Positions 1,164 to 10,614 of a stretch of DNA of 10,614 nt are shown one piece after another. Each line of letters opens with the position of its first letter. Within the stretch, counting starts at the first letter, position 1. The notes below the pieces were generated by a model. It ran no database searches. It was not told the DNA's origin and worked only from the letters and a program-made list of their open reading frames with translations. A program made the translations under genes and the position numbers. Source of the stretch: an uncultured Chloroflexaceae bacterium (GTDB lineage: Bacteria; Chloroflexota; Chloroflexia; Chloroflexales; Chloroflexaceae); assembly GCA_937141995.1 (NCBI GenBank), contig CAKZQX010000248.1, positions 1-10,614 on the forward strand. Reading direction: 5' to 3'.

Positions 1164-1245
1164 GGCATATGAGCGTATCGGGGGCAGCCGTAACAAGATG
1201 CTGGCAGCCTGGCAGGAAGGAAAGAAAGGAATGAACGGGATATGA
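1060..1245 (+). CDS. Helix-turn-helix-like 61-residue frame; possible frameshifted C-terminus of the ATPase
   Basis: This frame encodes an Ala/Arg/Glu-rich helical peptide with SFRKAYERIGGSRNKMLAAW at residues 32-51, resembling the helix-turn-helix found at the C-terminus of some plasmid and phage ATPases. The frame is open from 997, begins with TTG at 1060 (or ATG at 1066), and overlaps the ATPase frame out of register until 1163. Its stop overlaps the exonuclease start in ATGA (1242-1245), which suggests translational coupling and a genuine coding frame. A +1 shift in the G-rich run at 1048-1059 would join it to the ATPase as a DNA-binding tail. It may be a separate small gene, a natural frameshift product, a disrupted gene, or a sequence error. 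The HTH reading is by eye only. Confidence 0.55.
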   Translation: MDMQARRLRHQEQAATREMEQAYRAAGAAGESFRKAYERIGGSRNKMLAAWQEGKKGMNGI

Positions 1246-1895
1246 TCATCGTGGATATCGAAACAACAAAATTCTTTGACCATCCCGACGTAGCACGGCT
1301 GCCGCGCAAGAAACAGCTAGACGCGCTGCCGTTCGGCCTGGCGGTCACATATGACAGCGAAAACGATGAGCACATACTTTGGAATGGTGAGGTCGTGGCT
1401 CATTCACTCTGGGAGTATCTGCTCAAATCCAATCAGGTGGTTGGTGGATGGAACATAATCAGGTTCGATATACCGATAATACAGCGGGCTGCTGCGATGT
1501 TTCCGGGTTTCGATCCGGGGCTGACTTCACCGGCAGTGCTCGATCTCTTTGACCGCATCATCATCCATACCGGGCGCTGGTATCCGCTCGGCTTCATTGC
1601 CGAGGTCAATGGACTAGGGAGCAAGCTTGCTGACGGCAAACAGGCGTCGCAGTGGCTCAACAGCGGCGATCCGGCGCTCATCCAGCGCTGCGCGGAGTAC
1701 TGCAAAAACGATGTGGATCTGACGTGGCGTCTCTACGAGTTGGCGCGCACGACGGGAATATACCTGCCGGCGCGGCCAGGTCGGAAACATCCAGAAACAG
1801 AGAATTTTCGCATTTGGATAGATGGGGAGCGCTGGCGACTTCTGGACGAGGACAGCGGCAATGATTTCAGGGAGGCGTGGGATGTAAACAGTTAG
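1242..1895 (+). CDS. DEDDy-type 3'-5' exonuclease (RNase H-like fold)
   Basis: The 217-residue protein has all three exonuclease motifs of the DnaQ-like DEDDy class: Exo I VDIET (D5, E7), Exo II NIIRFD at 71-76 (D76), and Exo III YCKND at 153-157 (Y153, D157). These four acidic residues bind two metal ions in this family, and the tyrosine marks the DEDDy rather than DEDDh branch. The whole protein is essentially this one domain, with about 45 charged residues after it, so it is a stand-alone nuclease and not the proofreading part of a polymerase. It resembles RNase_H_2/YprB-type proteins. AAAGGA at 1225-1230 can act as a ribosome site, and ATGA overlap couples it to the upstream frame. Sharing an operon with a translocase suggests a role in processing element DNA or RNA, but the substrate is not shown. 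Confidence 0.85.
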   Translation: MIIVDIETTKFFDHPDVARLPRKKQLDALPFGLAVTYDSENDEHILWNGEVVAHSLWEYLLKSNQVVGGWNIIRFDIPIIQRAAAMFPGFDPGLTSPAVLDLFDRIIIHTGRWYPLGFIAEVNGLGSKLADGKQASQWLNSGDPALIQRCAEYCKNDVDLTWRLYELARTTGIYLPARPGRKHPETENFRIWIDGERWRLLDEDSGNDFREAWDVNS

Positions 1896-1944: not shown

Positions 1945-1984
1945 AAAGCGCCGATCTGAGCAGTCAGATCGGCGCTTTCGTTTT
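1945..1984 (+). terminator. Strong bidirectional intrinsic terminator
   Basis: AAAGCGCCGATCTGA (1945-1959) and TCAGATCGGCGCTTT (1964-1978) form a perfect 15-bp stem with a GCAG tetraloop, followed by CGTTTT on the plus strand. On the minus strand the stem runs directly into six T residues (complement of 1942-1947), so it should also stop transcription from the right. It closes the ATPase/exonuclease operon and faces the acyltransferase remnant. Confidence 0.9.
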
Positions 1985-2040
1985 ACACCGCGACTCGTGT
2001 GATGCGGAAAACTCGCTCATGCACGCTGTAAAAAGTTACA

Positions 2041-2071
2041 GTCAACTGTTCTGCGTCTGAGAACAGTTGAC
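2041..2071. other. Perfect 12-bp inverted repeat
   Basis: GTCAACTGTTCT (2041-2052) and AGAACAGTTGAC (2060-2071) are exact reverse complements separated by seven bases. On the minus strand the stem is followed at nine bases by a TTTTT run, so it may be a second, weaker terminator for the acyltransferase remnant. The symmetry also fits an operator. It lies in the tail of the remnant's reading frame. Confidence 0.65.
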
Positions 2072-2202
2072 ACTCTTCTGCCGATCTGTATCGCCGGTGC
2101 TTCGATCAGGTAGTAGGTTCCGGCTGCGAGTGCGATCGGATGCATCAGATACAGACTATAGCTGATTAGCCCGAACCAGACGATTCCGCGCGGCCATGTC
2201 CA
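2068..2202 (-). pseudogene. Remnant of an acyltransferase-3 (OafA/YrhL type) membrane protein
   Basis: Read on the minus strand, this stretch gives WFGLISYSLYLMHPIAL followed soon by TYYLIEAPAIQIGRRVS. SYSLYLMHP and YxxIExPxxxxGRR are both signatures of the C-terminal part of acyltransferase-3 family proteins, integral membrane enzymes of about 350 residues or more that O-acylate surface sugars. In intact members dozens of residues of transmembrane helix separate the two motifs; here almost none do. The frame has no other part of the domain and lies in a surrounding open frame of 72 codons (2017-2235). I infer an internally deleted, 5'-truncated host gene fragment. It suggests that this spot is an old insertion or recombination boundary between the left and right gene blocks. 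It points toward the bidirectional terminator at 1945-1984. Confidence 0.6.
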
Positions 2203-2210
2203 TTTAAACT

Positions 2211-2255
2211 GCAGGTGAAACCCCCGTGTTACCAAAAGTAAAAACTTTCACCTGC
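2211..2255. promoter_or_regulatory. 10-bp inverted repeat upstream of the translocase gene
   Basis: GCAGGTGAAA (2211-2220) is the exact reverse complement of TTTCACCTGC (2246-2255), with a 25-base spacer. The right arm is the core of the 28-bp direct repeat at 2234-2261. The pair lies about 60-105 bases before the FtsK-like start codon, where an operator or a recombinase-binding pair would be expected. Only the symmetry is directly observed; no convincing -35/-10 pair was recognised. Confidence 0.5.
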
Positions 2256-2261
2256 TGCGAA
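2234..2261 (+). repeat. 28-bp direct repeat, copy A
   Basis: This copy starts AAAAGTA and ends CACCTGCTGCGAA. It matches 4166-4193 at 27 of 28 positions (A at 2240 versus T at 4172). It lies 56 bases before the translocase start codon. With copy B it brackets the gene exactly, with a period of 1932 bp. Confidence 0.85.
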
Positions 2262-2317: not shown

Positions 2318-4174
2318 ATGGTTGGGTTACTACGCTGGTATACAAAAACACTGTTTAAACTCGCACTCAAACCGCTACGGGGCGGGTTGAAACTCGCGGA
2401 TGGGGTAGCCCGGCGCAACGCGGGGGAGCGGGCCAAGCGGCGGCGGCAGGCGAATCGCATTGCATCGCTGATGCTGAGTGAGTTTTCGCGGCTCGGGTTC
2501 TCACGGCGTTCCGAGGGGACGCGGAAGAAGAAACGCAAGAAGAAGCACATCAGATGGGAGTATCCGCTTTTGATGACCCATGATGAGGTCTGGTGTCCTC
2601 TCGATCTAAAGCGCCTGCCCTACGGGGTGACAACGAACATGCTTCGGGATGAGGATGTTCTCCAAAGTTTAGAAGATCGCTGTCACGTCTCGATCCGGGT
2701 GGATTACTTAGCCAACGGGAAGACATGCTTCGTAGCGCGCTTGGGGGGCAGCAAGTTCCCGGAGAAGTTCAGTATTAATGCATTCAAAATGCCGGTCGAT
2801 GCGCCCTCTTTGGCTTTTGCGCTGGGCATGAATGGGGATGGTGAGCATAGCACCGGCGATCTGACCGATCTGAAGCACCTGCTGGTTGTGGGCGCGACCG
2901 GCGGGGGCAAAACGACATTCCTGCACTGTTTGCTGTACTGGCTGATTACGCGCAACTCCTCACAGGATCTCGAGCTCTGGCTCATTGACATGAAGAACGG
3001 GGCGGAGTTGGGCCGCTATGAGGCGTTGAAGGCGTCACGGCTGAATCCACACGGGATGGTGCGGCATATTGCGTTTGAGGCGAAAGCGGCGATTGATGTG
3101 CTGAACCTGGCGCTGCAAGCCATCCAGCAGCGGAATGAGGAAATGCGCAAGCATAGCGCCAGTAACATTGACGACCTGGCGCACCTCACCGGCATCCGCT
3201 TCCCGCGCATTGTGGTGGTCATAGATGAGATCGTGATGCTGATGCTGGATAAGAACAAGATCGGGAAGTACAGCACCGGAAGTTGGGCCGAAAACCTGAT
3301 GACTCGCATTGCCAGCCTGGGGCGGAGCGCCGGGGTGCATCTTGTCATCTCAACGCAGGTCATTCAGAAAGATGTGCTCACCGGCATGATCCTGGCAAAC
3401 TTTGAGAACCGCATCTGCTTCAGCGTTGCCGACTGGCGCAAATCGCAACTGGCGATTGAGAGCAGCGATGCAGACGGGTTGCCGGTTGGCCGGGCGATCT
3501 TGCGGCGTGAAGGGCAGACCAGCGAGTATCAAACATGCTTAATCACACCACAGCAAACCAGACTCGAACTGGCACGCATCAAACGTGAAGGGCCAGACGG
3601 CGGACTGGGCCAGCACGATGAGACAGCACGTTTTGTGCGGGATGCGAAGCTGCTGCTCTCCGTCGCGTGTGAGCGGATGCAGGGGGACTTTGGCCGTACC
3701 AAACTGCTGCGTGAAGACGGCGTCAAGGGCGTGATCAGTGAGCAGCGCTTCAACGAAATCGCGCAGCGCCTGGAGCGGGATGGGGTGCTCGATCCGGGGC
3801 GGAGTAACCGCAGTCGGCGCGTGGCGCGGGGCTATTTCGGCAGGCCGCACTTGCTGGATGTGCTGTATGTGGTACACAGCAGCCACACAGCAGACCCCCA
3901 CACAGCACCCACACAGCAGGGTACGGATGACGACTGCTGTGCGCCTGCTGTGTGGGCCGATTCAGGCGATGGGGACGCGGAAAACAACACATCAGAAAAC
4001 GACGATCCTGCTGTGTGTGGTGTGGAAGACAACACCACCCGTAGCGCGCATGACGAGGAGGCAGACGAGCCCGAATTGCCACGCTGGAAGATCCTGGACT
4101 TTCCGGTTGAACTGCCGGATGCTCCCCCGGCTGAGGCAGAGCAGCCAAAGCCAAAACGCAAGCGGAAAAGTTAA
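2318..4174 (+). CDS. FtsK/SpoIIIE-type DNA translocase
   Basis: The 618-residue product is a hexameric-motor type DNA-pumping ATPase. Walker A GATGGGKTT is at residues 192-200 (K198), LELWLIDMKNGAELGRYE at 218-235 is the FtsK-family segment after the P-loop, Walker B IVVVIDEI is at 298-305 (D303, E304), and HLVISTQ at 341-347 carries the sensor Gln. Residues about 438-505 look like a winged helix, comparable in place to FtsK gamma, which reads DNA motifs. There is no membrane anchor: residues 1-80 are basic (KKKRKKK near 70-76), and residues 515-618 are an acidic, disordered tail ending KPKRKRKS. It lacks the four transmembrane helices of chromosomal FtsK, fitting a plasmid or phage form such as Streptomyces TraB-like or packaging translocases. 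AGGAGA at 2305-2310 is seven bases before ATG, fixing the start. The gene is bracketed by a 28-bp direct repeat. Confidence 0.92.
   Translation: MVGLLRWYTKTLFKLALKPLRGGLKLADGVARRNAGERAKRRRQANRIASLMLSEFSRLGFSRRSEGTRKKKRKKKHIRWEYPLLMTHDEVWCPLDLKRLPYGVTTNMLRDEDVLQSLEDRCHVSIRVDYLANGKTCFVARLGGSKFPEKFSINAFKMPVDAPSLAFALGMNGDGEHSTGDLTDLKHLLVVGATGGGKTTFLHCLLYWLITRNSSQDLELWLIDMKNGAELGRYEALKASRLNPHGMVRHIAFEAKAAIDVLNLALQAIQQRNEEMRKHSASNIDDLAHLTGIRFPRIVVVIDEIVMLMLDKNKIGKYSTGSWAENLMTRIASLGRSAGVHLVISTQVIQKDVLTGMILANFENRICFSVADWRKSQLAIESSDADGLPVGRAILRREGQTSEYQTCLITPQQTRLELARIKREGPDGGLGQHDETARFVRDAKLLLSVACERMQGDFGRTKLLREDGVKGVISEQRFNEIAQRLERDGVLDPGRSNRSRRVARGYFGRPHLLDVLYVVHSSHTADPHTAPTQQGTDDDCCAPAVWADSGDGDAENNTSENDDPAVCGVEDNTTRSAHDEEADEPELPRWKILDFPVELPDAPPAEAEQPKPKRKRKS
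3874..4020. repeat. CACACAGCAG direct and inverted repeat cluster in the translocase 3' end
   Basis: ACACAGCAG or CACACAGCA occurs at 3874-3882, 3885-3893, 3899-3907 and 3911-3919, and in inverse orientation as CTGCTGTGTG at 3946-3954 and 4009-4018. The arms CCCACACAGCAGG (3908-3920) and CCTGCTGTGTGGG (3944-3956) are perfectly complementary over 13 bp. The array lies in the part encoding the disordered tail, just after the winged-helix region. This may be a recognition array for the translocase, or simply the outcome of repeated His-Thr-Ala codons. Confidence 0.75.
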
Positions 4175-4193
4175 AACTTTCACCTGCTGCGAA
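4166..4193 (+). repeat. 28-bp direct repeat, copy B
   Basis: This copy overlaps the last two codons and stop of the translocase gene and ends 28 bases before the start of the 47-residue membrane protein gene. One base differs from copy A at 2234-2261. As both copies lie shortly upstream of a start codon in the same direction, a shared regulator site is the plain alternative to a recombination scar. Confidence 0.85.
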
Positions 4194-4221: not shown

Positions 4222-4365
4222 ATGGATACCACTGAATACACCCTCCTCCCGGACGGCACCTATGCTGTCGTGATCAGGTCATTAACCTGGGGGGAAGCAG
4301 TGATTATCCTCATCCTGGTTGCACTGCTGTTTCTGAAGGTCTACGAAATATGGCGGCAGCGTTAA
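4222..4365 (+). CDS. Small single-span membrane protein (47 residues)
   Basis: ATG at 4222 opens a 47-residue frame ending TAA at 4363-4365. Residues 1-20 are polar with a short acidic start (MDTTEY), residues about 23-40 form one hydrophobic helix (EAVIILILVALLFLKV), and the end is basic (YEIWRQR), predicting an N-out, C-in orientation. I do not recognise a family. It follows the 28-bp repeat copy B and overlaps the next gene by 16 bases, as is common in tightly coupled phage or plasmid genes. No strong ribosome site precedes it. Being one of several tiny membrane proteins in a row supports it as real. Confidence 0.7.
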   Translation: MDTTEYTLLPDGTYAVVIRSLTWGEAVIILILVALLFLKVYEIWRQR

Positions 4366-4877
4366 CAGCGCACACAACGAGTACAGCGCACCTGGCTATC
4401 GGCACAAAACTGCCGGTAGCCAGGGACGGCATCACGGTCAGACCGTGGGAGCGCCGGGACCGGAGCACCATTGCACACTGGCCGGCACCGGAGATCCTGG
4501 CAGCCTGGGCCGCAACCAAGACGGCCTACGGCAACCGGCAAAGTTACGCCATAGACCTCCGTGGCAATCTGATAGGCCGCATCAGCCTGCGGGATATTCT
4601 GCCCGGCATTGAGGCGCGGTTGGGGGTCTACTTACATCCTGACTACGTGTCGCAGGGCTATGGCACTACGGCACTGGCAATATTCCTAGATGTCTTCTTC
4701 AGCGAGTTTTTGTGGATGCGCCTGGATGTCGCAGCAGCGAACCGGCGCGCAATTCGGTGTTATGAGAAACTGAACTTCCGCGTGGTTCACTGCGAGTGGC
4801 GGGAAACCACCAGCGGCGGCACAACGGTCTTTCAGGAGATGAAGCTCAACCGGGAGGCATGGCATGCATCCCGCTGA
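4350..4877 (+). CDS. GNAT-family N-acetyltransferase (RimJ/RimL-like)
   Basis: The 175-residue protein carries the acetyl-CoA-binding core of the GNAT fold: motif A LGVYLHPDYVSQGYGTTALA at 91-110, with the pyrophosphate-binding SQGYGT loop at 101-106, and motif B LDVAAANRRAIRCYEKLNF at 125-143 with the N131...Y138 pair. The arrangement is that of the RimJ/RimL branch, which acetylates protein N-termini or small amines. The first position of the Q/R-x-x-G-x-G loop is Val, a tolerated variation in this branch. The start overlaps the upstream gene by 16 bases; GAAGG at 4335-4339 may be the ribosome site. About 25 residues before the domain are low complexity. The substrate is unknown; its place among membrane-protein genes hints at modification of an element product or a cargo gene. 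Confidence 0.88.
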   Translation: MAAALTAHTTSTAHLAIGTKLPVARDGITVRPWERRDRSTIAHWPAPEILAAWAATKTAYGNRQSYAIDLRGNLIGRISLRDILPGIEARLGVYLHPDYVSQGYGTTALAIFLDVFFSEFLWMRLDVAAANRRAIRCYEKLNFRVVHCEWRETTSGGTTVFQEMKLNREAWHASR

Positions 4878-4971
4878 ATTAGGGTTGGTCGCACTGGTCT
4901 TTGTTCTGGCGCTCGATATGCTGGGGGATCTGTTTCAGGGTCTGGTGACAGGCCGGGCGAGGCACAAATGA
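4864..4971 (+). CDS. Small single-span membrane protein (35 residues)
   Basis: ATG at 4864 lies inside the 3' end of the acetyltransferase gene (14-base overlap) and the frame ends TGA at 4969-4971. The peptide is hydrophobic from residue 5 to about 26 (ELGLVALVFVLALDMLGDLF) and ends basic (TGRARHK). CGGGAGG at 4851-4857 upstream is a good ribosome site (six bases spacing). The stop overlaps the next start in ATGA. Length and build resemble the 32-33-residue minor end-cap proteins pVII and pIX of filamentous phages, but such short hydrophobic peptides carry little family information. Confidence 0.65.
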   Translation: MHPAELGLVALVFVLALDMLGDLFQGLVTGRARHK

Positions 4972-5129
4972 CGCAGTTACCGGCATTCCTGGCCGCAGTC
5001 CTGGGGACGGCACTCACGGTTGAGTTTCTGCTCCTGACGGGCTTCCTGATTATCGTTATTCTCCGGCGCAACCTGTATACCGCGCTGGAGCATGTGACCA
5101 CTAACGACCAACACGACCAACAACGCTAG
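4968..5129 (+). CDS. Small single-span membrane protein (53 residues)
   Basis: The frame starts in the ATGA overlap with the previous gene and ends TAG at 5127-5129. Residues about 5-32 are hydrophobic (strongest TVEFLLLTGFLIIVIL), followed by basic RRNLY and a polar, Asp/Gln-rich tail (NDQHDQQR). This predicts an N-out, C-in membrane protein. No family is recognised. The stop codon lies within the 5' acceptor strand of the tRNA-like structure that starts at 5125. Confidence 0.68.
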   Translation: MTQLPAFLAAVLGTALTVEFLLLTGFLIIVILRRNLYTALEHVTTNDQHDQQR

Positions 5130-5198
5130 GGAGGTGTTATGGCCGCACGCCGGGATAGTCCCCCGGTAGTCCAGGTTCAATTCCTGGCCTTAGCCCCA
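5125..5198 (+). tRNA. Atypical tRNA or tRNA-like element, anticodon AGT (Thr) by position
   Basis: All four arms fold. Acceptor GCTAGGG (5125-5131) pairs with CCTTAGC (5188-5194), one G-T; D arm GTGT/GCAC (5134-5137/5145-5148), one G-T, has GG in its loop; anticodon arm CCGGG/CCCGG (5150-5154/5162-5166) is perfect; T arm CCAGG/CCTGG (5171-5175/5183-5187) has loop TTCAATT. The B box GGTTCAATTCC fits the consensus fully and CCA is encoded (5196-5198). Loop ATAGTCC places T33 before AGT, which would read ACU (Thr); G1-C72 and C2-G71 agree with Thr. Oddities: A8 and T14 are swapped relative to the universal U8/A14, position 21 is C not A, and position 37 is C not a purine. The gene overlaps the preceding stop codon. 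It may be a working phage-type tRNA, a decaying one, or a tRNA-like mRNA structure. Confidence 0.6.
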
Positions 5199-5270
5199 TT
5201 GTCCTTTTATTGTTGTTCTCTCTCGTTTCAACTCAAAGGAGGCAATCGACTGTACTTCCAGTCGGATTAA
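5139..5270 (+). CDS. Possible 43-residue peptide overlapping the tRNA-like element
   Basis: ATG at 5139 is preceded by GGGAGGTG (5129-5136), a strong but close ribosome site. The peptide has a basic start (MAARRDS) and a hydrophobic stretch at about 10-30, resembling a signal peptide, and ends at TAA 5268-5270 inside the next frame. Most of it is read through the tRNA-like sequence, so it may be accidental. If real, a -1 shift would join it to the coat-like frame at 5210-5446 and supply the leader that frame lacks. Confidence 0.22.
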   Translation: MAARRDSPPVVQVQFLALAPLSFYCCSLSFQLKGGNRLYFQSD

Positions 5271-5446
5271 CGAACGCAATCGAAGCGGTGAAAGATTTGG
5301 TTAGCGAACTACTCACCATGCTTTCAGGAATTATCTTCCCTGACACCATCACGGCATTGTCCGTTATCGCCGCGTTTGGCTTCATCTTCCCGTTCATCTT
5401 GCTCGTCCTCGGCCTGATCAAGCGTCTGGCATCGGCAGCCAGTTAG
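5210..5446 (+). CDS. Coat-protein-like small membrane protein, start unclear
   Basis: The frame is open from 5159 to TAG 5444-5446; counted from TTG at 5210 it has 78 codons. Residues about 22-41 form an acidic amphipathic helix (NAIEAVKDLVSELLTMLSG), residues 48-70 a hydrophobic span, and the end is short and basic (KRLASAAS). This acidic helix, membrane helix and basic tail order is that of the mature major coat protein of filamentous phages such as M13, about 50 residues. The similarity is in build, not in recognised sequence. No ATG exists; TTG 5210 has no ribosome site, while the strong AAAGGAGG at 5235-5242 has no in-frame start at normal spacing. A stem-loop terminator follows at 5473, as after gene VIII in M13. 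It could also be an unrelated holin-like or conjugation membrane protein. Confidence 0.6.
   Translation: MLFSLVSTQRRQSTVLPVGLTNAIEAVKDLVSELLTMLSGIIFPDTITALSVIAAFGFIFPFILLVLGLIKRLASAAS
5235..5264 (+). promoter_or_regulatory. Strong ribosome site followed by a hairpin, but no in-frame start codon
   Basis: AAAGGAGG (5235-5242) is a near-perfect Shine-Dalgarno sequence. Seven bases later comes CTG (5250), whose frame stops at 5268-5270. The coat-like frame offers only ACT and GTA at this distance. CGACTG (5247-5252) and CAGTCG (5259-5264) form a 6-bp hairpin over the place where initiation is expected. Confidence 0.5.
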
Positions 5447-5472
5447 CCAGCCACGCGGATCAGCATCAGCAG

Positions 5473-5504
5473 GCGGCCGGGGGCAACCCTGGCCGCTTTG
5501 TAGT
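5473..5504 (+). terminator. Intrinsic terminator with GCAA tetraloop
   Basis: GCGGCCGGGG (5473-5482) pairs with CCCTGGCCGC (5487-5496) including one G-T pair, closed by a GCAA (GNRA) loop, and is followed by TTTGTAGTTTGTAGTTT. The T run is interrupted, so it may be leaky and let some transcription reach the downstream envelope genes, giving a step down in expression after the coat-like gene. Confidence 0.75.
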
Positions 5505-5524
5505 TTGTAGTTTCGGAGATTATC

Positions 5525-5824
5525 GTGCAAGACACCATGGCCGCGTTTACGGAATTATTGATAGGCATACTCTATACGCCCGCCGTGGCGTTTTTTTTGC
5601 TGCCGGTGCTGGCGATCCGGCTCGTTATCCGGTTTTTTAACTGGGCACACCGGCGCGCGCGCGGCGGGCCGGATTACGAGGCGTTGGCCGATGGGTATGA
5701 GGAAACCGGCATGGGGATCGGCAACCGCATGTACTACGGGCGGCGCTATGGGGAGGTGCGGCGATCCGGGATGAACGACCGTGCGTTGTACCGGGAGCGG
5801 GGAGGGAGGCGGCGGCGATGGTAA
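5525..5824 (+). CDS. Membrane protein with basic cytoplasmic tail (99 residues)
   Basis: GTG at 5525 follows GGAG (5515-5518) with six bases spacing, favouring it over ATG at 5537. Residues about 9-36 are hydrophobic (one long span or a tight hairpin around P19/P27), followed by RRARGG and a soluble region rich in Gly, Tyr and Arg that ends RERGGRRRRW. The strongly basic tail should lie in the cytoplasm and could touch nucleic acid or phospholipid. No family is recognised. It is the first gene after the terminator and overlaps the next start by seven bases (ATGGTAA), so it heads the envelope gene run. Confidence 0.75.
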   Translation: MQDTMAAFTELLIGILYTPAVAFFLLPVLAIRLVIRFFNWAHRRARGGPDYEALADGYEETGMGIGNRMYYGRRYGEVRRSGMNDRALYRERGGRRRRW

Positions 5825-6498
5825 AAATCGTTGGTATCGTGCTGCTGGCGCTGCTGCTGGCCGGACTGCTGCCGGGGCGGGCGTACGCGCAGTGTAGTGC
5901 GCAGTATTACCAGGGATCGACCGCGCTCCCGCTCACACTCACGGGAAATCGGGCGGGTGATGAGTACACTTTGGTGTCAATAGACATCCCCGACTCGCAG
6001 ATGGTTATTGATGTGCAACGTAGCGGCGGGGATTGGGTACGCAATTATGTAAGTGTAGGCCAGAGTTATATTGTCCCTGATGCAACGCTGCAAGTTATAT
6101 TATCGCTTGAGTCTCGCACGTTGAACGGGGGCGAGATTGAGATCTGTACCCCCACGCCCACCAGTACACCTACCCTGACCGCCACAGCGACACTCACGCC
6201 CACGGCCACGGCCACCCTGACCGCCACAGCGACACTCACCCCCACGGCCACCCTGACCGCCACAGCGACACTCACGCCCACGGCCACGGCCACGGCCACC
6301 AGCACGGCCATAGCCGCTGTTGTTTTTGACCTCTCCGACCTGGTGACCGTGGCCGGGGAGTTTGGCGCGCAAGAGGTGGCAGCGTGGGAACCGGGACAGC
6401 CGTATGCATCGCTATTCCTGGCACTGGCCGGGCTGATGCTCACGGTCTTCCTTGTCGTGTTTCTGCGCTCCCTGGTACCAACATGGCGCGACGATTAA
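5818..6498 (+). CDS. Secreted, membrane-anchored protein with Thr/Pro stalk (226 residues)
   Basis: The N-terminus is a clear signal peptide (MVKIV, hydrophobic 6-19, AYA before Q25). The mature part has a compact domain at about 25-110 with Cys at 26 and 110 that may pair, then a Thr/Pro/Ala stalk at 111-162 built from in-frame tandem repeats, a short domain, and a C-terminal membrane span at about 197-217 ending basic then acidic (RSLVPTWRDD). It should sit with its head outside the cell on a flexible stalk. The head domain is not recognised. The start overlaps the upstream gene by seven bases and the stop overlaps the next start by 16, so these genes are translationally coupled. Confidence 0.85.
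   Translation: MVKIVGIVLLALLLAGLLPGRAYAQCSAQYYQGSTALPLTLTGNRAGDEYTLVSIDIPDSQMVIDVQRSGGDWVRNYVSVGQSYIVPDATLQVILSLESRTLNGGEIEICTPTPTSTPTLTATATLTPTATATLTATATLTPTATLTATATLTPTATATATSTAIAAVVFDLSDLVTVAGEFGAQEVAAWEPGQPYASLFLALAGLMLTVFLVVFLRSLVPTWRDD
6172..6297 (+). repeat. Tandem repeat encoding the Thr/Pro stalk
   Basis: Three head-to-tail copies begin ACCCTGACCGCCACAGCGAC at 6172, 6214 and 6250, with lengths 42, 36 and 48 bases. The differences are whole ACGGCC hexamers, so the reading frame is kept. This layout is prone to slippage, so stalk length probably varies between strains. Confidence 0.9.
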
Positions 6499-7451
6499 CA
6501 CTTGCAGCATGTGCCGCTGCATTCGTGCTGCTCCTGCTGGCCGCCAGCGGCGCGGGCCGGGCCGCGTATGCGCAGGCCACGCCAATCCCAACCCCCTTTG
6601 CCCCACAACTCACACCTATCCCAACCCCCATGCCGCAACCAACCGCTGTCGCATGGGAAGCCATCCCCGACATCGTTGGCTATGTACGTTTTGATGTGCC
6701 GACGTGCGATGACTGCGGCGGGGTGCCACCGGCGCTAGAGGTAGGAACGCAGCCGGAACCGCCAGATGACGGCGGATGGTTCGGGCTGGGTGACTGGTTC
6801 AACATTGACTGGTTCGGGTGGATCGTCGAGTCGGTGTGGGATATCGTCGTCAAGCTCACCTGCTGGCTGCTGTTTATGTTGCGGTTGGTGGTCGATATTC
6901 TGGCGGTGATCTGTAATGTACTCTTGCAGTTTCTCAACGAACTCTGGCGGCTGCTGATCATCCTCTGGCTCTCGCTCTCCAGCGTGATTATCTGGCTGGC
7001 CGGGCTCATTCAGTACGTTCTAGATATTCTCTCCGCGCTGCTAATCTATGTGTTTTGGGTGCTGGAATTTGCGCGGATCATACTCATTTTTCTGCTGGAG
7101 CTTATTGTCGTGGTGGTCAACCTGGTCCTGCTTCTCATCGGCGTCGTGCTGCGGCTGCTGGCACTCATCGGCTGGTTGGGGGCGCTCCTGCTGGGCGTGC
7201 TCGATCTGCTGCTGACGGGACTGCTCCAGCCGGACGGGAGCAGCGGGGAGATTGCTTACAACACCCCACAGGCGCTGACTGAGGTCAGTGGACATCCGAT
7301 ATTGCTAGGACTGCGGGGCATTCAGGAGGGCATTCTCAATAGCCGGGCCGGGTGGATGATTGGACTGTTGCATGTGCTGGCCTGGATCGGCTTTTTTATC
7401 TGGATCGTCACGTTTCTTCCCGGCACGAAAACCAGCGGGGAGGCTGAATAA
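6483..7451 (+). CDS. Polytopic membrane protein with signal peptide and Pro-rich linker (322 residues)
   Basis: ATG at 6483 is chosen because it starts a good signal peptide (MARRLTLAACAAAFVLLLLA, cleavage near AYA/Q31); an upstream in-frame ATG (6384) would add 33 residues read through the previous gene. Residues 32-56 are a Pro/Thr linker, C75 and C78 form a CxxC pair in DVPTCDDCGG, and residues 97-120 are rich in Trp and Phe. Residues about 120-247 are almost continuously hydrophobic, enough for five or six spans, with another span near 291-312. The topology loosely recalls VirB6/TrbL channel proteins of type IV secretion or a greatly enlarged phage pVI, but no signature is seen. It overlaps the upstream gene by 16 bases and shares one base with ATG 7451. 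Confidence 0.8.
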   Translation: MARRLTLAACAAAFVLLLLAASGAGRAAYAQATPIPTPFAPQLTPIPTPMPQPTAVAWEAIPDIVGYVRFDVPTCDDCGGVPPALEVGTQPEPPDDGGWFGLGDWFNIDWFGWIVESVWDIVVKLTCWLLFMLRLVVDILAVICNVLLQFLNELWRLLIILWLSLSSVIIWLAGLIQYVLDILSALLIYVFWVLEFARIILIFLLELIVVVVNLVLLLIGVVLRLLALIGWLGALLLGVLDLLLTGLLQPDGSSGEIAYNTPQALTEVSGHPILLGLRGIQEGILNSRAGWMIGLLHVLAWIGFFIWIVTFLPGTKTSGEAE

Positions 7452-10450
7452 TGAAAAGGGGACAAGACCATGTTCAAAGATCCGTTCTGGCTCAGGATGG
7501 CGCTGCGAAGCGTAACCTATCTGACGATCTTCATGATCATCGTCTGGGTTGCGATGACGACCATGACCGGCTGCGAGGGGGGCGGCGGGTTCGGCGGCGG
7601 CAGCAGCGGCTTCGAGTAGTTGCAACGCTGCTAGTGCTGGCCGCGCTGCTGCTACCGACGCTGGCCGAGGTTGGCACTGCGCTGGCGCAGAGTTGCAGGG
7701 AAGTACTCGCACCGGCATATCCGAACGCGCAGATCGTCACCCTGGAGGCTGGTGAAGTTATTTATGCTCACTATGCCGAGGATACGTACTTGTGGCCGGT
7801 CTGGGAGCCGTTCCCGCCGCTGCCGGGCGGCATCCTGGTGCCGCAAGACGGGATGGAAATACAACAGACGGAAGTCTACTATTTGTTTCACGATCCCGGC
7901 ACGATTACCGAGCCAGTAGCGCAGTATGCCGATGATTGGAACTGCTCGACGTTGGACACATGCGCAGCGCAGATCGGACAAACGATAGACGCAGTAACCG
8001 CAGATCTCTTCGAGATGCTTAATTGCACGGCGGCTATTATTTTTGGCGAGCCGCGCTGCACAAACTACGACGGCGGCAGCAGTGGCTTCGGCCAGCCCGC
8101 TGGCATCCGCATCTGCAACCCCAACCCGCCGACGCCGACGCCGACGCCAACCGCACTCCCACCGCCACCCGGCTGTTATTTGTGGTCTATCCCCGCCAAC
8201 AGCGATTGGACGCACGTATTCACGGAGCGTTCAGTCGTGCATAGCTACCCAACGCCGTACACGATCCAGTACCTGAACCAATACGGCGGGTACGAGGATA
8301 CATGGTCCTGGCTAACGACCTGGGACCAGGCTATTAATCCAATCATCGTGGAGCCCAATAGATTAGAGATGTTCCACCGCTATTACGGGCCAGATCAGCC
8401 GGGGGCGGGCATTACAACGCCGGATAGCAAATTGCTTGTGTGCCCGGTTGCGGAGGGAACGCCGACGGCGACGCCGACAGTGACGCCGACGCCGGGTGTG
8501 GATCTTGGACCAGGTGATTCTCGAATTTTTGTATACGAAAATTGGGATGTTGTGGGGTTTCAATGCTATTCTTATGAAGGACGACATGTATTTATGTCCT
8601 ATTCACTCGATGGTCAGGAGTATACTGATGTTAATTGGTGCGACAAACGTCCATGGAAGCGTTTCAGATTGGATGGTGATCCCGTGTGGTTTAGGCTTGA
8701 AAATAGACATTCGACTGAAAGTAGATCATTTCCTATTGATGTCCAGACACATAATGATAAAATTATTGATATTTTGCTAGATCATCAGTCTGAATATTAT
8801 GTTCTTCCTATGCAACATGTTTATTTTAATATCCTCAATCCTTCCGTGTATTCTGCGCAGTGTTCCGGTAGTATTGAGGATGCGGGGGATGTGCGTCTCT
8901 ATGTGAACGGGGTGTTAGCTAGTGATAGCGGCATTTGTGACAAAAAATCGACCGCTTCTGGTCTTTCTGCTGAAGAATTGTCAGTTTATGGTAGCACTGG
9001 GCAATGGACTACTACTCGTAATCATGCGATTGTGACGCTGTGGCAATCAGCGCAAACGTCCACACCCGCCCCGGCCACCCGCACACCACCGCCCACCTTC
9101 ACGCCGCAGGCCAGCCGGACGCCGACCAACACGCCCACGGCAACCATTACGCCGACAATCACGCCAACGTGGAACCCGCTTACGCCCACGCCCACGCCTA
9201 CCGCAACCGGCACGGCCACGGCCACCGGCACGCCGTACGCCACGAGCACGCCCAGGCCGACGAGCCCACCCACGCCGACACCAGATCCGCGTTTCGACTG
9301 CGATATCTGTCTCAAGCTCACACAAATCATTGCGAAGCTGGAAATACAGATCAGCCTGCAACAGACCGCTGTAGCACTGCTCAAAACCCCAGTAGTCGTA
9401 AACGTACCAACCGACGATCCGCGCTACGAGCAGACCCAGGTAGCCCTGCTCGAAACCATCGCAGCGGGCGGGACGGCCAGCACCGCAACCAGCGCCAGCA
9501 CCGCAACCAATACCCCCACCGCCAGCCGGACGCCGACCGCAACGCCGGCGTTGCCGCGTGTACGCGCTGAAGTGAGTAAGCCCGGAGCAGTGCGAGAAGG
9601 TGCCGGCTTCGTTGCCGTCAACCTGGTGTTGAGCCAGCCACACGACAAATCGGTGAGCGTACACTGGGAAACGCAGGCCGGGAGCGCAGTCGGTGTGCTG
9701 GATTACGTGCCCTGGAGCGAGGATATTACCTTTGCGCCGGGAGAGACGGTCAAGACGGTGCAGATCATCATTCTGGATGACGACGAAGGGGAGAGCGATG
9801 AGTCGTTCTCAGTTGTTTTGAGTAGTCCTGACAATGCGCTCCTCGACGACTTCTCCAGCGCGATGATCCAGATCCAGGATGACGACCGCCCGGCGACGCC
9901 CACGGCGTCCAACACCCCAACCGGGACACTGACCGCAACCAGCACCCCGGCAGGTTTGCCCCCCAGTGACCTGGTATGCCGTCCAACCGCAACCCTCCAG
10001 CCGATGAACAAATCGCCAATGCCGGATCTGGCGCTGGTGCTGCCGACGATCCGCCCGCTCCCGACGCTGTTTGCAACGATAGAGATATCGGCGCATGTGA
10101 TGATTGACGTTGTGCAGACAGCGCAGAGCGCCATAGAGACGCCCATGCGGGCATTGGAAACCAGCACCGCAAACTACGACTGGGAGGGCGGCGAATTGCT
10201 CTCACAAACGGCGGTAGCAAACGTCGAGCCGGGCATGGAGTGGGTTGTGTTGCTCAACCCGAACGCCCCGGCCTGGACCGAGGAGGGCAGCGTCTTATGG
10301 GCGCTGGCTCCATTCCTGGGGCCGCTCATGCCGATTATCTCAATCAGCTTACTGGTTGTGATTGCGCAGTTCTTTCTGTGGGTGCTGAAGTGGCTCCTAC
10401 GGCTACTGGATATCATCTTTGGAGCAATTGAACTCATTCCGGGAGAATAG
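7451..10450 (+). CDS. Large multidomain surface protein: Thr/Pro linkers, Calx-beta-like domain, C-terminal anchor
   Basis: Counted from ATG 7451 the protein has 999 residues. A signal peptide core spans 48-80 (basic RRRQQRLR, hydrophobic helix, ALAQ before S81). Cys-containing domains lie at 82-225 and 241-335, a third AT-rich-encoded domain at 357-535, and a helical segment at 614-675. Residues 703-812 read as Calx-beta: VLDYVPWSEDITFAPGE, then IIILDDDEGESDESFSVVLS. Thr/Pro linkers lie at 226-240, 336-349, 537-612, 677-700 and 815-833. Residues about 944-985 form one or two membrane spans near the C-terminus. This is a long flexible surface molecule, suited to adhesion or receptor binding. 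The start is unclear: ATG 7451 has GGGGAGG upstream, but its first 47 residues look like shadow sequence over the nested gene at 7470-7619. A -1 shift from that gene is an alternative; GTG 7634 would leave a signal peptide without basic residues. Confidence 0.88.
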   Translation: MKRGQDHVQRSVLAQDGAAKRNLSDDLHDHRLGCDDDHDRLRGGRRVRRRQQRLRVVATLLVLAALLLPTLAEVGTALAQSCREVLAPAYPNAQIVTLEAGEVIYAHYAEDTYLWPVWEPFPPLPGGILVPQDGMEIQQTEVYYLFHDPGTITEPVAQYADDWNCSTLDTCAAQIGQTIDAVTADLFEMLNCTAAIIFGEPRCTNYDGGSSGFGQPAGIRICNPNPPTPTPTPTALPPPPGCYLWSIPANSDWTHVFTERSVVHSYPTPYTIQYLNQYGGYEDTWSWLTTWDQAINPIIVEPNRLEMFHRYYGPDQPGAGITTPDSKLLVCPVAEGTPTATPTVTPTPGVDLGPGDSRIFVYENWDVVGFQCYSYEGRHVFMSYSLDGQEYTDVNWCDKRPWKRFRLDGDPVWFRLENRHSTESRSFPIDVQTHNDKIIDILLDHQSEYYVLPMQHVYFNILNPSVYSAQCSGSIEDAGDVRLYVNGVLASDSGICDKKSTASGLSAEELSVYGSTGQWTTTRNHAIVTLWQSAQTSTPAPATRTPPPTFTPQASRTPTNTPTATITPTITPTWNPLTPTPTPTATGTATATGTPYATSTPRPTSPPTPTPDPRFDCDICLKLTQIIAKLEIQISLQQTAVALLKTPVVVNVPTDDPRYEQTQVALLETIAAGGTASTATSASTATNTPTASRTPTATPALPRVRAEVSKPGAVREGAGFVAVNLVLSQPHDKSVSVHWETQAGSAVGVLDYVPWSEDITFAPGETVKTVQIIILDDDEGESDESFSVVLSSPDNALLDDFSSAMIQIQDDDRPATPTASNTPTGTLTATSTPAGLPPSDLVCRPTATLQPMNKSPMPDLALVLPTIRPLPTLFATIEISAHVMIDVVQTAQSAIETPMRALETSTANYDWEGGELLSQTAVANVEPGMEWVVLLNPNAPAWTEEGSVLWALAPFLGPLMPIISISLLVVIAQFFLWVLKWLLRLLDIIFGAIELIPGE
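7470..7619 (+). CDS. Small putative lipoprotein nested in the start of the large surface gene (49 residues)
   Basis: ATG at 7470 follows AAAAGGGG (7454-7461) at eight bases. The product has a basic start (MFKDPFWLRMALR), a hydrophobic helix at about 15-31, then MTGC at 32-35, a plausible lipobox, and a Gly-rich end (EGGGGFGGGSSGFE). Cleavage before C35 would leave a 15-residue lipidated peptide; otherwise it is a one-span membrane protein. The frame differs from that of the overlapping large gene. Its codons for GGSSGF recur at 8071-8090 (19 of 20 bases identical), where the large protein also reads GGSSGF, supporting this frame as the one with meaning. No family is recognised. Confidence 0.65.
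   Translation: MFKDPFWLRMALRSVTYLTIFMIIVWVAMTTMTGCEGGGGFGGGSSGFE
7577..7583 (+). other. Candidate -1 frameshift heptamer G GGG GGC
   Basis: In the frame of the 49-residue gene the bases read GAG GGG GGC, so the heptamer fits X XXY YYZ. A -1 slip here leads to CGG CGG GTT and directly into the basic region and signal-like helix of the large surface protein. It offers a start for that protein that avoids its odd N-terminal extension. Function is inferred only from position and frame. Confidence 0.35.
8519..9055 (+). other. AT-rich module inside the large surface gene
   Basis: Base composition drops sharply between two Thr/Pro linkers; for example, 17 of 60 bases at 8761-8820 are G or C, while flanking linkers are mostly G and C. 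Codon choice also changes, with many A/T-ending codons such as GAT, TAT and ATT. It encodes residues 357-535, a domain with Cys at 372, 397, 471 and 496. The borders match linker borders, which fits acquisition of a whole domain by recombination. Confidence 0.8.
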
Positions 10451-10452
10451 TC

Positions 10453-10614
10453 ATGCAAAAGCTGTTTGGACATCCCCTTTTGGAACTACCACAGATACCG
10501 CGTGAACGGGTCGCGCTGCAAACCCTGATTAGCGCAACCCGCCGACAGATCAAGCGCAGCAGGTTAATGCGCTGGGCTGCGCTCAACTTTATCGGCTGGG
10601 GGCTAATCATCCTC
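10453..10614 (+). CDS. Membrane protein, 3' end cut by window
   Basis: ATG at 10453 follows GGGAG (10441-10445) at seven bases and begins two bases after the stop of the surface protein gene. The first 54 residues are a polar, basic segment (RRQIKRSRLMR at about 30-40) leading into a hydrophobic helix (AALNFIGWGLIIL) that continues past the end of the window. It is probably another component of the same envelope gene run, with its N-terminus in the cytoplasm. No family can be named from this fragment. Confidence 0.7.
   Translation, partial: MQKLFGHPLLELPQIPRERVALQTLISATRRQIKRSRLMRWAALNFIGWGLIIL

Follow-up and report, generated by a model that had tools for sequence, protein, structure and literature searches.

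A new family of integrating, probably virus-like elements in Chloroflexales, with a tRNA-Thr gene adjoining the coat-like gene in one of its clades

Gene content of the window

The window, meaning the whole stretch of 10,614 nucleotides that was analysed (G000:C248:1-10614), derives from a fragmented genome and encodes two ATPases, an exonuclease and a block of small membrane proteins that leads up to an anchored giant surface protein, hereafter the spike (Table 1). A sequence-only reading had described this block, which is indeed present and recurs in the same order elsewhere; its list of consecutive genes was right in substance but missed the GNAT acetyltransferase gene between the 47- and 35-aa genes and the tRNA-Thr gene between the 53-aa and coat genes. 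Transmembrane (TM) segments of the window proteins were called by a simple hydropathy scan. Ten window proteins were scanned against Pfam, and the 35- and 53-aa proteins were scanned against NCBIfam only.

Table 1. Features of the window, with their positions in nucleotides and the evidence or remarks belonging to each
Feature	Position	Strand	Evidence or remark
ATPase, N-terminus lost at contig end	1..1163	+	weak FtsK/HerA-type Pfam matches, no Zot match
RNase H-like / PolB-type 3'-5' exonuclease	1242..1895	+	PF13482, E 7.4e-07
Perfect inverted repeat, 15 bp, terminator-like	1945..1978		
FtsK/SpoIIIE-type DNA-translocase ATPase of the element clade	2318..4174	+	PF01580, E 8.4e-25; clade separated by score
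47-aa single-TM protein, conserved	4222..4365	+	alignment of 6 elements
GNAT acetyltransferase	4350..4877	+	PF13302, E 5e-12; present in L050 too
35-aa membrane protein (MHP...)	4864..4971	+	counterparts of 32-42 aa, matched by eye
53-aa membrane protein	4968..5129	+	counterparts of 38-66 aa, matched by eye
tRNA-Thr, anticodon AGU, CCA encoded	5125..5198	+	ARAGORN; Rfam RF00005, 38.9 bits
Shine-Dalgarno site AAAGGAGG of the coat gene	5235..5242	+	
Coat-like protein, 65 aa, predicted Thr start ACT (5249-5251)	5249..5446	+	
Hairpin, 12 bp, directly 3' of the coat gene, terminator-like	5471..5498	+	
99-aa membrane protein with basic tail	5525..5824	+	counterparts of 117 aa (L050) and 122 aa (L049, by position)
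226-aa stalked protein: signal peptide, T/P/A linker, C-terminal TM	5818..6498	+	
322-aa exported protein, one predicted 139-residue hydrophobic helix (residues 110-248)	6483..7451	+	
Possible 49-aa single-TM protein, Gly-rich tail, overlapping the spike ORF	7470..7619	+	
Spike (large surface protein)	7451..10450	+	start codon provisional
Small gene 3' of the spike, start only	10453..10614	+	79-aa counterpart in L022

The left-hand ATPase, whose relatives extend the N-terminus by about 26 residues, has 51-56% relatives in G032, G019 and G024 and probably lies outside the core module, because some elements are without it. Its TraC/VirB4 matches in NCBIfam fell far below the cut-off (28.6 of 567 bits). 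Its candidacy as the morphogenesis ATPase pI was rejected, since loci L024 and L025 carry it in other surroundings without the cassette and no Zot domain was matched; of these two neighbourhoods, a Prim-Pol domain was confirmed in that of L024 only. A circular window contig was likewise rejected, an exact terminal overlap of 10-399 bases being absent. At its right end the window contains the beginning of another, separate small gene, and because the gene following the spike in L022 is also separate and small, the left-hand ATPase is no continuation from that end.

The coat-like protein (hereafter the coat) has two hydrophobic helices and a basic C-terminus. Its AlphaFold2 model, of modest confidence (mean pLDDT 74.5), consists of a helix at residues 5-29, a turn and a second helix at residues 36-64, and a structural search with the model returned no match (best E 6 in BFVD and 8.5 in PDB). 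The helix, TM segment, basic tail and terminator-like hairpin had been recognised in the sequence-only reading, but two helices with a turn were modelled, and no ATG, GTG or TTG stands at the Shine-Dalgarno site.

The 322-aa exported protein, previously read as polytopic, was modelled instead as a single 139-residue helix, mostly with pLDDT >90. In 37 aligned rows this region measures 139-141 residues in 32, 136-137 in three and 79 in two, and the helix carries a polar stripe at 101 degrees per residue, stronger than in any of 5000 shuffles evaluated with the same grid. The 226-aa stalked protein has a weak match in L050 (E 0.004). The window spike displays a hydrophobic signal-like segment, T/P linkers, a Calx-beta domain and a C-terminal TM anchor, and it is the C-terminal region with the anchor that is conserved across elements; the N-terminus of the 999-aa spike ORF is uncertain because the 49-aa membrane ORF overlaps it in another frame.

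Relatives, shared cassette and integration

A search with an 8-row FtsK profile recovered the FtsK clade of the window in 8 of 158 genomes of the class, all from the window's order (Chloroflexales), and in 5 of 400 genomes of the phylum, which were the same ones as in the class search. Among the 158 class genomes, element copies scored 735-897 bits, with nine near-full-length copies in seven genomes (G000, G012 twice, G032 twice, G026, G004, G045 and G064). Fragments in G064, G012 and G023 scored 289-410 bits, and the next-best match, at 220 bits, was taken as the host FtsK. The hosts include Oscillochloris sp. ZM17-4 (G032:C154), 'Ca. Chloroploca' sp. Khr17 (G026:C33), Chloroflexia bacterium SDU3-3 (G045:C6) and an Oscillochloris MAG (G012:C275). 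We sorted the elements into clade A (the window, L050, and L022 with L049) and clade B (L023, L053, L054, L055 and L241); the coat region is covered in 6 of the 8 loci, L055 and L241 ending before it.

Wider searches added little to this set. A single-protein FtsK search of genome contigs gave no match; by FtsK alignment, only L141, which is the same contig as L050, aligned strongly among the best 80 of 566 loci in genome contigs, and the best 80 of 333 loci in viral contigs reached at most 37% identity. Viral contigs searched with the left-hand ATPase and the coat yielded no confirmed relative, and neither the 50,697 phage records nor the 72,556 plasmid records searched by tblastn with the coat contained one. 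The coat search gave one weak additional match in the 158 class genomes (G127, E 0.008) and five in the 400 phylum genomes (E 9e-4 to 7e-3). The titles and abstract openings consulted on Chloroflexi inoviruses, Chloroflexus viruses, Chloroploca phages, spindle viruses, pleolipoviruses, pI/Zot, non-AUG initiator tRNAs and DdrB describe no such elements.

The elements share a common order of genes, in which membrane proteins of 47, about 35 and about 50 aa are followed by a two-helix coat-like protein of 61-70 aa, a strong hairpin, more small proteins, usually the long-helix exported protein, and the anchored spike; the FtsK-type ATPase is shared as well. The sequence-only reading had suggested a search for the same gene order in other Chloroflexota, and this order recurs in both clades. 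The 47-aa protein is alignable across six elements, and the eye-matched counterparts of the 35- and 53-aa proteins stand in the same order in both clades, that of the 35-aa protein in L023 coinciding with a contig cut. Since other elements repeat this succession of counterparts, the small-protein block is more than chance. By simple hydropathy, the 47-, 35- and 53-aa proteins and their relatives resemble the short structural proteins of inoviruses, which measure 30-90 aa and span the membrane once; two hydrophobic helices are seen in the coat. Against a fixed cassette, the clade A element in G032:C106 lacks both the 226- and the 322-aa protein, and there the 122-aa gene is followed at once by a spike of only 438 aa.

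The coat occupies the same position in both clades. A clade B coat profile run against a 12-sequence set matched the coats of the window and L049 at E 0.0003-0.0006 and that of L050 at E 0.015, and comparison of the clade A and clade B profiles gave a probability of 45%. Since this sequence likeness is weak, the equivalence of the coats across clades rests mostly on position. L054 carries two tandem coat copies that are 92% identical. A strong hairpin lies 3' of the coat in all five elements examined (the window, L050, L049, L054 and L023), and in L054 it follows the second copy and is absent after the first; a simple terminator scan flagged the hairpin of the window and missed those of L050 and L049. 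The hairpin on its 3' side, joined in clade A by the tRNA on its 5' side, would set the coat gene apart for high output.

Evidence of integration came from L054, a contig of 17,193 bases that opens and closes with the same 77 bases, so that a unit of 17,116 bp, either an assembled circle or an insertion, lies between exact repeats. The 77-bp repeat contains the 3' half of a tRNA-Lys gene, a tyrosine integrase gene (113-1039) adjoins one repeat, and the host contig G004:C48 terminates in a whole tRNA-Lys gene with the same 77-mer; the repeats and this matching end define the 17,116-bp unit with tRNA-Lys as its site. L054 thereby has both the integrase and the att repeats at a tRNA gene that characterise an integrating element, and it additionally encodes DnaB, ParB-like and 3'-5' exonuclease proteins. 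The integrase and att sites, which the sequence-only reading had named as features to look for, are accordingly present in a relative. Other elements lie within large contigs of G032 (329,809 bp) and G045 (432,616 bp) with flanking genes that look ordinary by eye; a search for direct-repeat att sites in L053 and G032:C106 gave no clear pair. The gene block is part of a family of integrating elements. A non-mobile envelope or surface-appendage system of the host would suit the surface protein and the peptidoglycan hydrolase domain of clade B, but the patchy occurrence in both genome sets and the integrases and att repeats of the relatives make such a cellular system very improbable.

The tRNA-Thr gene and the start of the coat gene in clade A

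Three clade A elements have DNA at this position (the window, L050 and L049, in this order below), and in each of them the coat gene is immediately preceded by a tRNA-Thr gene on the same strand, the leaders measuring 50, 48 and 41 nt. The clade B elements L023, L053 and L054 have no such tRNA, and their coats begin with ATG. The Shine-Dalgarno duplexes of the three clade A coat genes are strong, at -11.1, -9.7 and -8.3 kcal/mol, and the codons after them are ACT at 6 nt, ACA at 6 nt and ACA at 7 nt. The anticodons of the adjoining tRNAs are AGU, UGU and UGU, an exact match of predicted start codon and anticodon in each of the three elements. ACT accounts for 15 of 258 Thr codons in the window genes counted, where it is the rarest of them, and ACA for 24 of 220 in L050 and 24 of 155 in L049; given Thr on both sides, three exact matches would arise from codon usage with a chance of about 0.001. 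A role of the tRNA in serving Thr-rich linkers was rejected for the window on account of this rarity of ACT.

In L049, the coat frame between the stop at codon -40 and the gene's last codon is free of ATG, GTG and TTG. The nearest upstream in-frame start-type codon of the window and of L050 is a TTG, at -12 and -11, respectively; internal ones occur at codons 14, 17, 24, 37 and 51 of the window and at codon 15 of L050, and none of these codons stands where the Shine-Dalgarno site points. Upstream starts would lose the frame, because the three leaders differ in length.

A search of 5.8 billion proteins returned 11 coat homologues with ragged N-termini, gene callers having begun within the tRNA or inside the gene. 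All six homologues that cover the start (P0001-P0005 and P0008, with P0001 being L050 itself) align from the Thr, a residue kept by the metagenomic homologues among them, and in the other five the start falls outside the covered part. Back-translation, a permissive and control-free procedure, allowed a Shine-Dalgarno site 6 nt before ACN in five of the six and 9 nt before it in P0005. For P0003 and P0008, all tRNA fits from the anticodon arm through CCA give the anticodons NGU and YGU, which are those of Thr, and the fits for P0001 and P0005 are compatible at most with a Thr anticodon.

The tRNA of the window scored 38.9 bits against 58.0-75.9 bits for the 27 others in the genome. In pairwise comparison with 14 host tRNAs, those of the window and L050 were closest to tRNA-Gln and that of L049 to tRNA-Asp. 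A host tRNA as their source was set aside on a weak test: searched against 61 genomes, the DNA of the L050 tRNA gave matches to no sequences other than the elements of G012 and G032, but the window's own tRNA was missed too. Recognition by ThrRS in E. coli depends on G1:C72 and C2:G71, and the element tRNAs have both pairs along with their Thr anticodons. Initiator tRNAs are distinguished by the type of the 11-24 pair, an unpaired 1-72 position and three G:C pairs in the anticodon stem. Against a true initiator role, the element tRNAs have an elongator-type 11-24 pair and a paired 1-72; the three G:C pairs are complete and G-first in the window only, L050 having a G.U in the middle and L049 a C:G. 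Elongator tRNAs are reported to initiate in E. coli when initiation fidelity is lowered, a supE tRNA-Gln then starting at UAG (PMC10486304).

These features led to a tentative proposal, to which we give somewhat less than an even chance. In clade A, the coat would start at a Thr codon (ACU or ACA) read by the tRNA-Thr that the element carries 41-50 nt upstream, the codon having changed in step with the anticodon. Nature would then have a pair of start codon and tRNA that stands apart from the AUG system, in a new lineage of bacterial membrane-particle viruses whose sister clade would package coat-tagged DdrB. Alternatively, the tRNA may only punctuate the transcript, its processing freeing the coat mRNA, with the coat starting elsewhere and the Thr match being due to chance. 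Such punctuation is the main alternative, given the same chance, and would agree with the tRNA abutting the stop codon of the upstream gene in all three elements (overlapping that of the 53-aa gene in the window), with the low score of the window tRNA, with the elongator-type 11-24 pair and paired 1-72, and with the in-frame ATG, GTG or TTG codons upstream and inside in the window and L050; it is opposed by the frame of L049, by leaders that do not preserve frame, by the match in three of three elements and by the use of the rarest Thr codon in the window.

A Thr start of the coat would mean that a mobile element evolved a start signal of its own, made up of a non-AUG codon and the cognate tRNA adjoining the gene, and initiation by non-initiator tRNAs in nature would become directly testable. 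The titles and abstract openings consulted on viruses, phages and non-AUG initiator tRNAs describe no virus-encoded Thr initiator. As the coat genes have already been mis-started by gene callers, similar cases may hide elsewhere.

Particle formation, conjugation and known systems

Two further traits of clade B bear on the function of the block. Its counterparts of the 322-aa protein bear an NlpC/P60 domain, and of 184 hits for the exported protein the best 120 include at least 59 NlpC/P60 relatives, which score 176-720 bits. In addition, the product of the gene after FtsK combines a membrane hairpin like that of the coat with a long charged stretch and a DdrB-ParB domain (PF18763); in L241 this fusion lies one gene further from FtsK. 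An N-terminal TM stretch occurs in 22 of 73 DdrB homologues, in 17 of the 73 a clade B coat HMM gives a match there (E <0.01), and two others have a phage-portal domain (PF04860). The coat-DdrB fusions measure 595-695 aa, and none was found in the clade A elements examined. P1 DdrB is reported to enter the phage head (PMC5512222), and by analogy we infer that the coat-tagged DdrB-ParB protein of clade B would be carried inside a particle.

We lean towards reading the block as the genes with which an integrating, probably non-lytic virus-like element of Chloroflexales would build its particles. The coat and the 35-, 47- and 53-aa proteins would assemble in the cell membrane, and the FtsK-type ATPase would pump double-stranded DNA into the particle as it forms, still bound to the membrane. 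The spike would bind the next cell; the NlpC/P60 protein would open the peptidoglycan, and its long helices would form a conduit. Should this hold, Chloroflexota host a lineage of chronic viruses without a known capsid or Zot hallmark, which surveys by marker genes would miss. The sequence-only reading had proposed a divergent virion or secretion module of Chloroflexota; the virion-like module is supported, as part of an integrating element with a tyrosine integrase, att repeats, DnaB and ParB in relatives and a hairpin behind the coat in every element examined, but kinship with filamentous phages is not.

The main rival, less likely though still substantial, is an integrative conjugative element that transfers double-stranded DNA by an FtsK/TraB-type pump, like Streptomyces plasmids and actinobacterial ICEs, with Spd-like small proteins, the spike as a mating adhesin and NlpC/P60 opening the wall. 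Consistent with conjugation are the NlpC/P60 domain, the integrase, ParB and DnaB of the relatives, and the FtsK-type ATPase with its weak TraB match (NF041214, E 1.7e-07, 30 bits against a cut-off of 800), over which T7SS EccC and FtsK matches, likewise below cut-off, were better. The high-output setting of the coat-like gene, with tandem copies and a hairpin, speaks against it, and no Spd family appeared in the Pfam and PHROGs matches of the 47-, 78- and 99-aa window proteins. An adjoining type IV secretion system, which the sequence-only reading had named as contrary evidence, was not found: no VirB4-type ATPase or relaxase was matched in Pfam among ten window proteins and 15 L054 proteins, and the nearest thing to one was a weak coupling-protein match of the L054 FtsK, below cut-off (E 0.031). 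The coat-DdrB fusion, whose domain is described as phage-type only, tilts the balance from conjugation to virus. The weak likeness of the coats across clades and the lack of two cassette genes in one clade A element make the virus reading slightly less probable and conjugation slightly more so.

That the element is a divergent filamentous phage (Inoviridae/Tubulavirales) is improbable. The elements share with them a row of several tiny membrane proteins (32-70 aa), a hairpin after the coat, a C-terminally anchored spike and host integration, but differ in their DnaB and ParB genes, the coat modelled as two helices, the long-helix NlpC/P60 protein and the coat-DdrB fusion, whose size hardly fits a thin filament and tilts the balance towards a vesicle-like particle. 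A criterion for Inoviridae is the morphogenesis ATPase pI, with Zot as its closest domain and one or two TM segments (PMC6813254). No Zot match was obtained at E 0.1 for either window ATPase or at E 0.05 for the 15 L054 proteins, and no rolling-circle Rep, which the sequence-only reading had named as a feature to look for, was matched among these 15; the smallest ORFs of L054 were left out of the scan, and the window is incomplete.

Other known systems resemble the elements in part. Pleolipoviridae, with genomes of about 7-17 kb, have an anchored spike and a cluster of membrane protein and NTPase genes, persist without lysis and in some cases integrate (PMC12642806). In the elements, genes of comparable types (anchored spike, membrane protein and NTPase) lie near each other, a likeness in type of gene, but their host is bacterial instead of halobacterial, and they add extra small proteins and NlpC/P60. 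PHROGs matches, whose rows carry no virus names, named no pleolipovirus family. Fuselloviridae and other spindle-shaped archaeal viruses have circular double-stranded DNA of about 15-17 kb, a tyrosine integrase, small coats with two hydrophobic helices and a large anchored end protein; the elements agree with them in size, integrase, a coat modelled with two helices and an anchored large protein, and differ in their bacterial host and in a coat model that gave no fold match. The TraB/FtsK-type conjugative elements of actinobacteria have in common with those described here an FtsK-type ATPase, an integrase and small membrane proteins, and what sets the present elements apart is the coat-like gene with its hairpin, the anchored spike and the coat-DdrB fusion. 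With DdrB of phage P1, finally, clade B shares the PF18763 domain, which it joins to a membrane hairpin resembling the coat and to a long stretch of charged residues.

Repeats and reading frames in the window

A 28-nt direct repeat (96%) lies immediately 5' of the FtsK gene and again immediately 5' of the 47-aa gene, and is possibly a common operator or promoter for the two; no copy was found by eye in the intergenic stretches examined from other elements. The minus-strand frame of 72 amino acids adjoining the FtsK gene was judged by eye to resemble the C-terminal end of an acyltransferase, and is perhaps a gene remnant. For the surface protein, the frame has an ATG but is overlapped, in a different frame, by a 49-aa membrane ORF, and the sole usual start near its signal-like segment is a GTG within that segment.

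Positions of the features discussed
Feature	Sequence	Position	Strand
Direct repeat, first copy	window	2234-2261	
Direct repeat, second copy	window	4166-4193	
72-aa frame	window	2017-2235	minus
Surface protein ATG	window	7451	
Stretch considered for the surface protein start	window	7451-7690	
49-aa membrane ORF	window	7470-7619	
L022/L049 element	G032:C106	243917-260439	
Contig ends at the L023 cut	G032:C154	14914-14949, 1-42	
tRNA-Lys 3'-half copies	G004:C18	7-48, 6799-6839	
Weak left-hand ATPase relative	G004:C18	5307-5738	

Palindrome and contig ends in related elements

The palindrome GATGTTTGCGCGCAAACATC occurs in 6 copies with 0-2 mismatches within the clade A element L022/L049, where it is a possible ParB or repressor site. 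No copy was detected outside this element in 39.5 kb scanned (≤3 mismatches), nor in 6 other element loci with 4 mismatches allowed.

The two ends of the 14,949-base contig carrying the clade B locus L023 probably join each other, since the cut falls inside the small-protein run; a search for an exact overlap between them found none. P0172 and P0173 each combine a phage portal domain (PF04860) and the DdrB-ParB domain within a single protein.

Left-hand ATPase relatives at other loci

At loci L024 and L025, the left-hand ATPase was found again beside a 3-4-TM protein, in other surroundings and without the coat cassette. Locus L292 contains two more copies of the tRNA-Lys 3' half, and the stretch between them, which includes a weak relative of this ATPase, may represent a further element occupying a site of this type.
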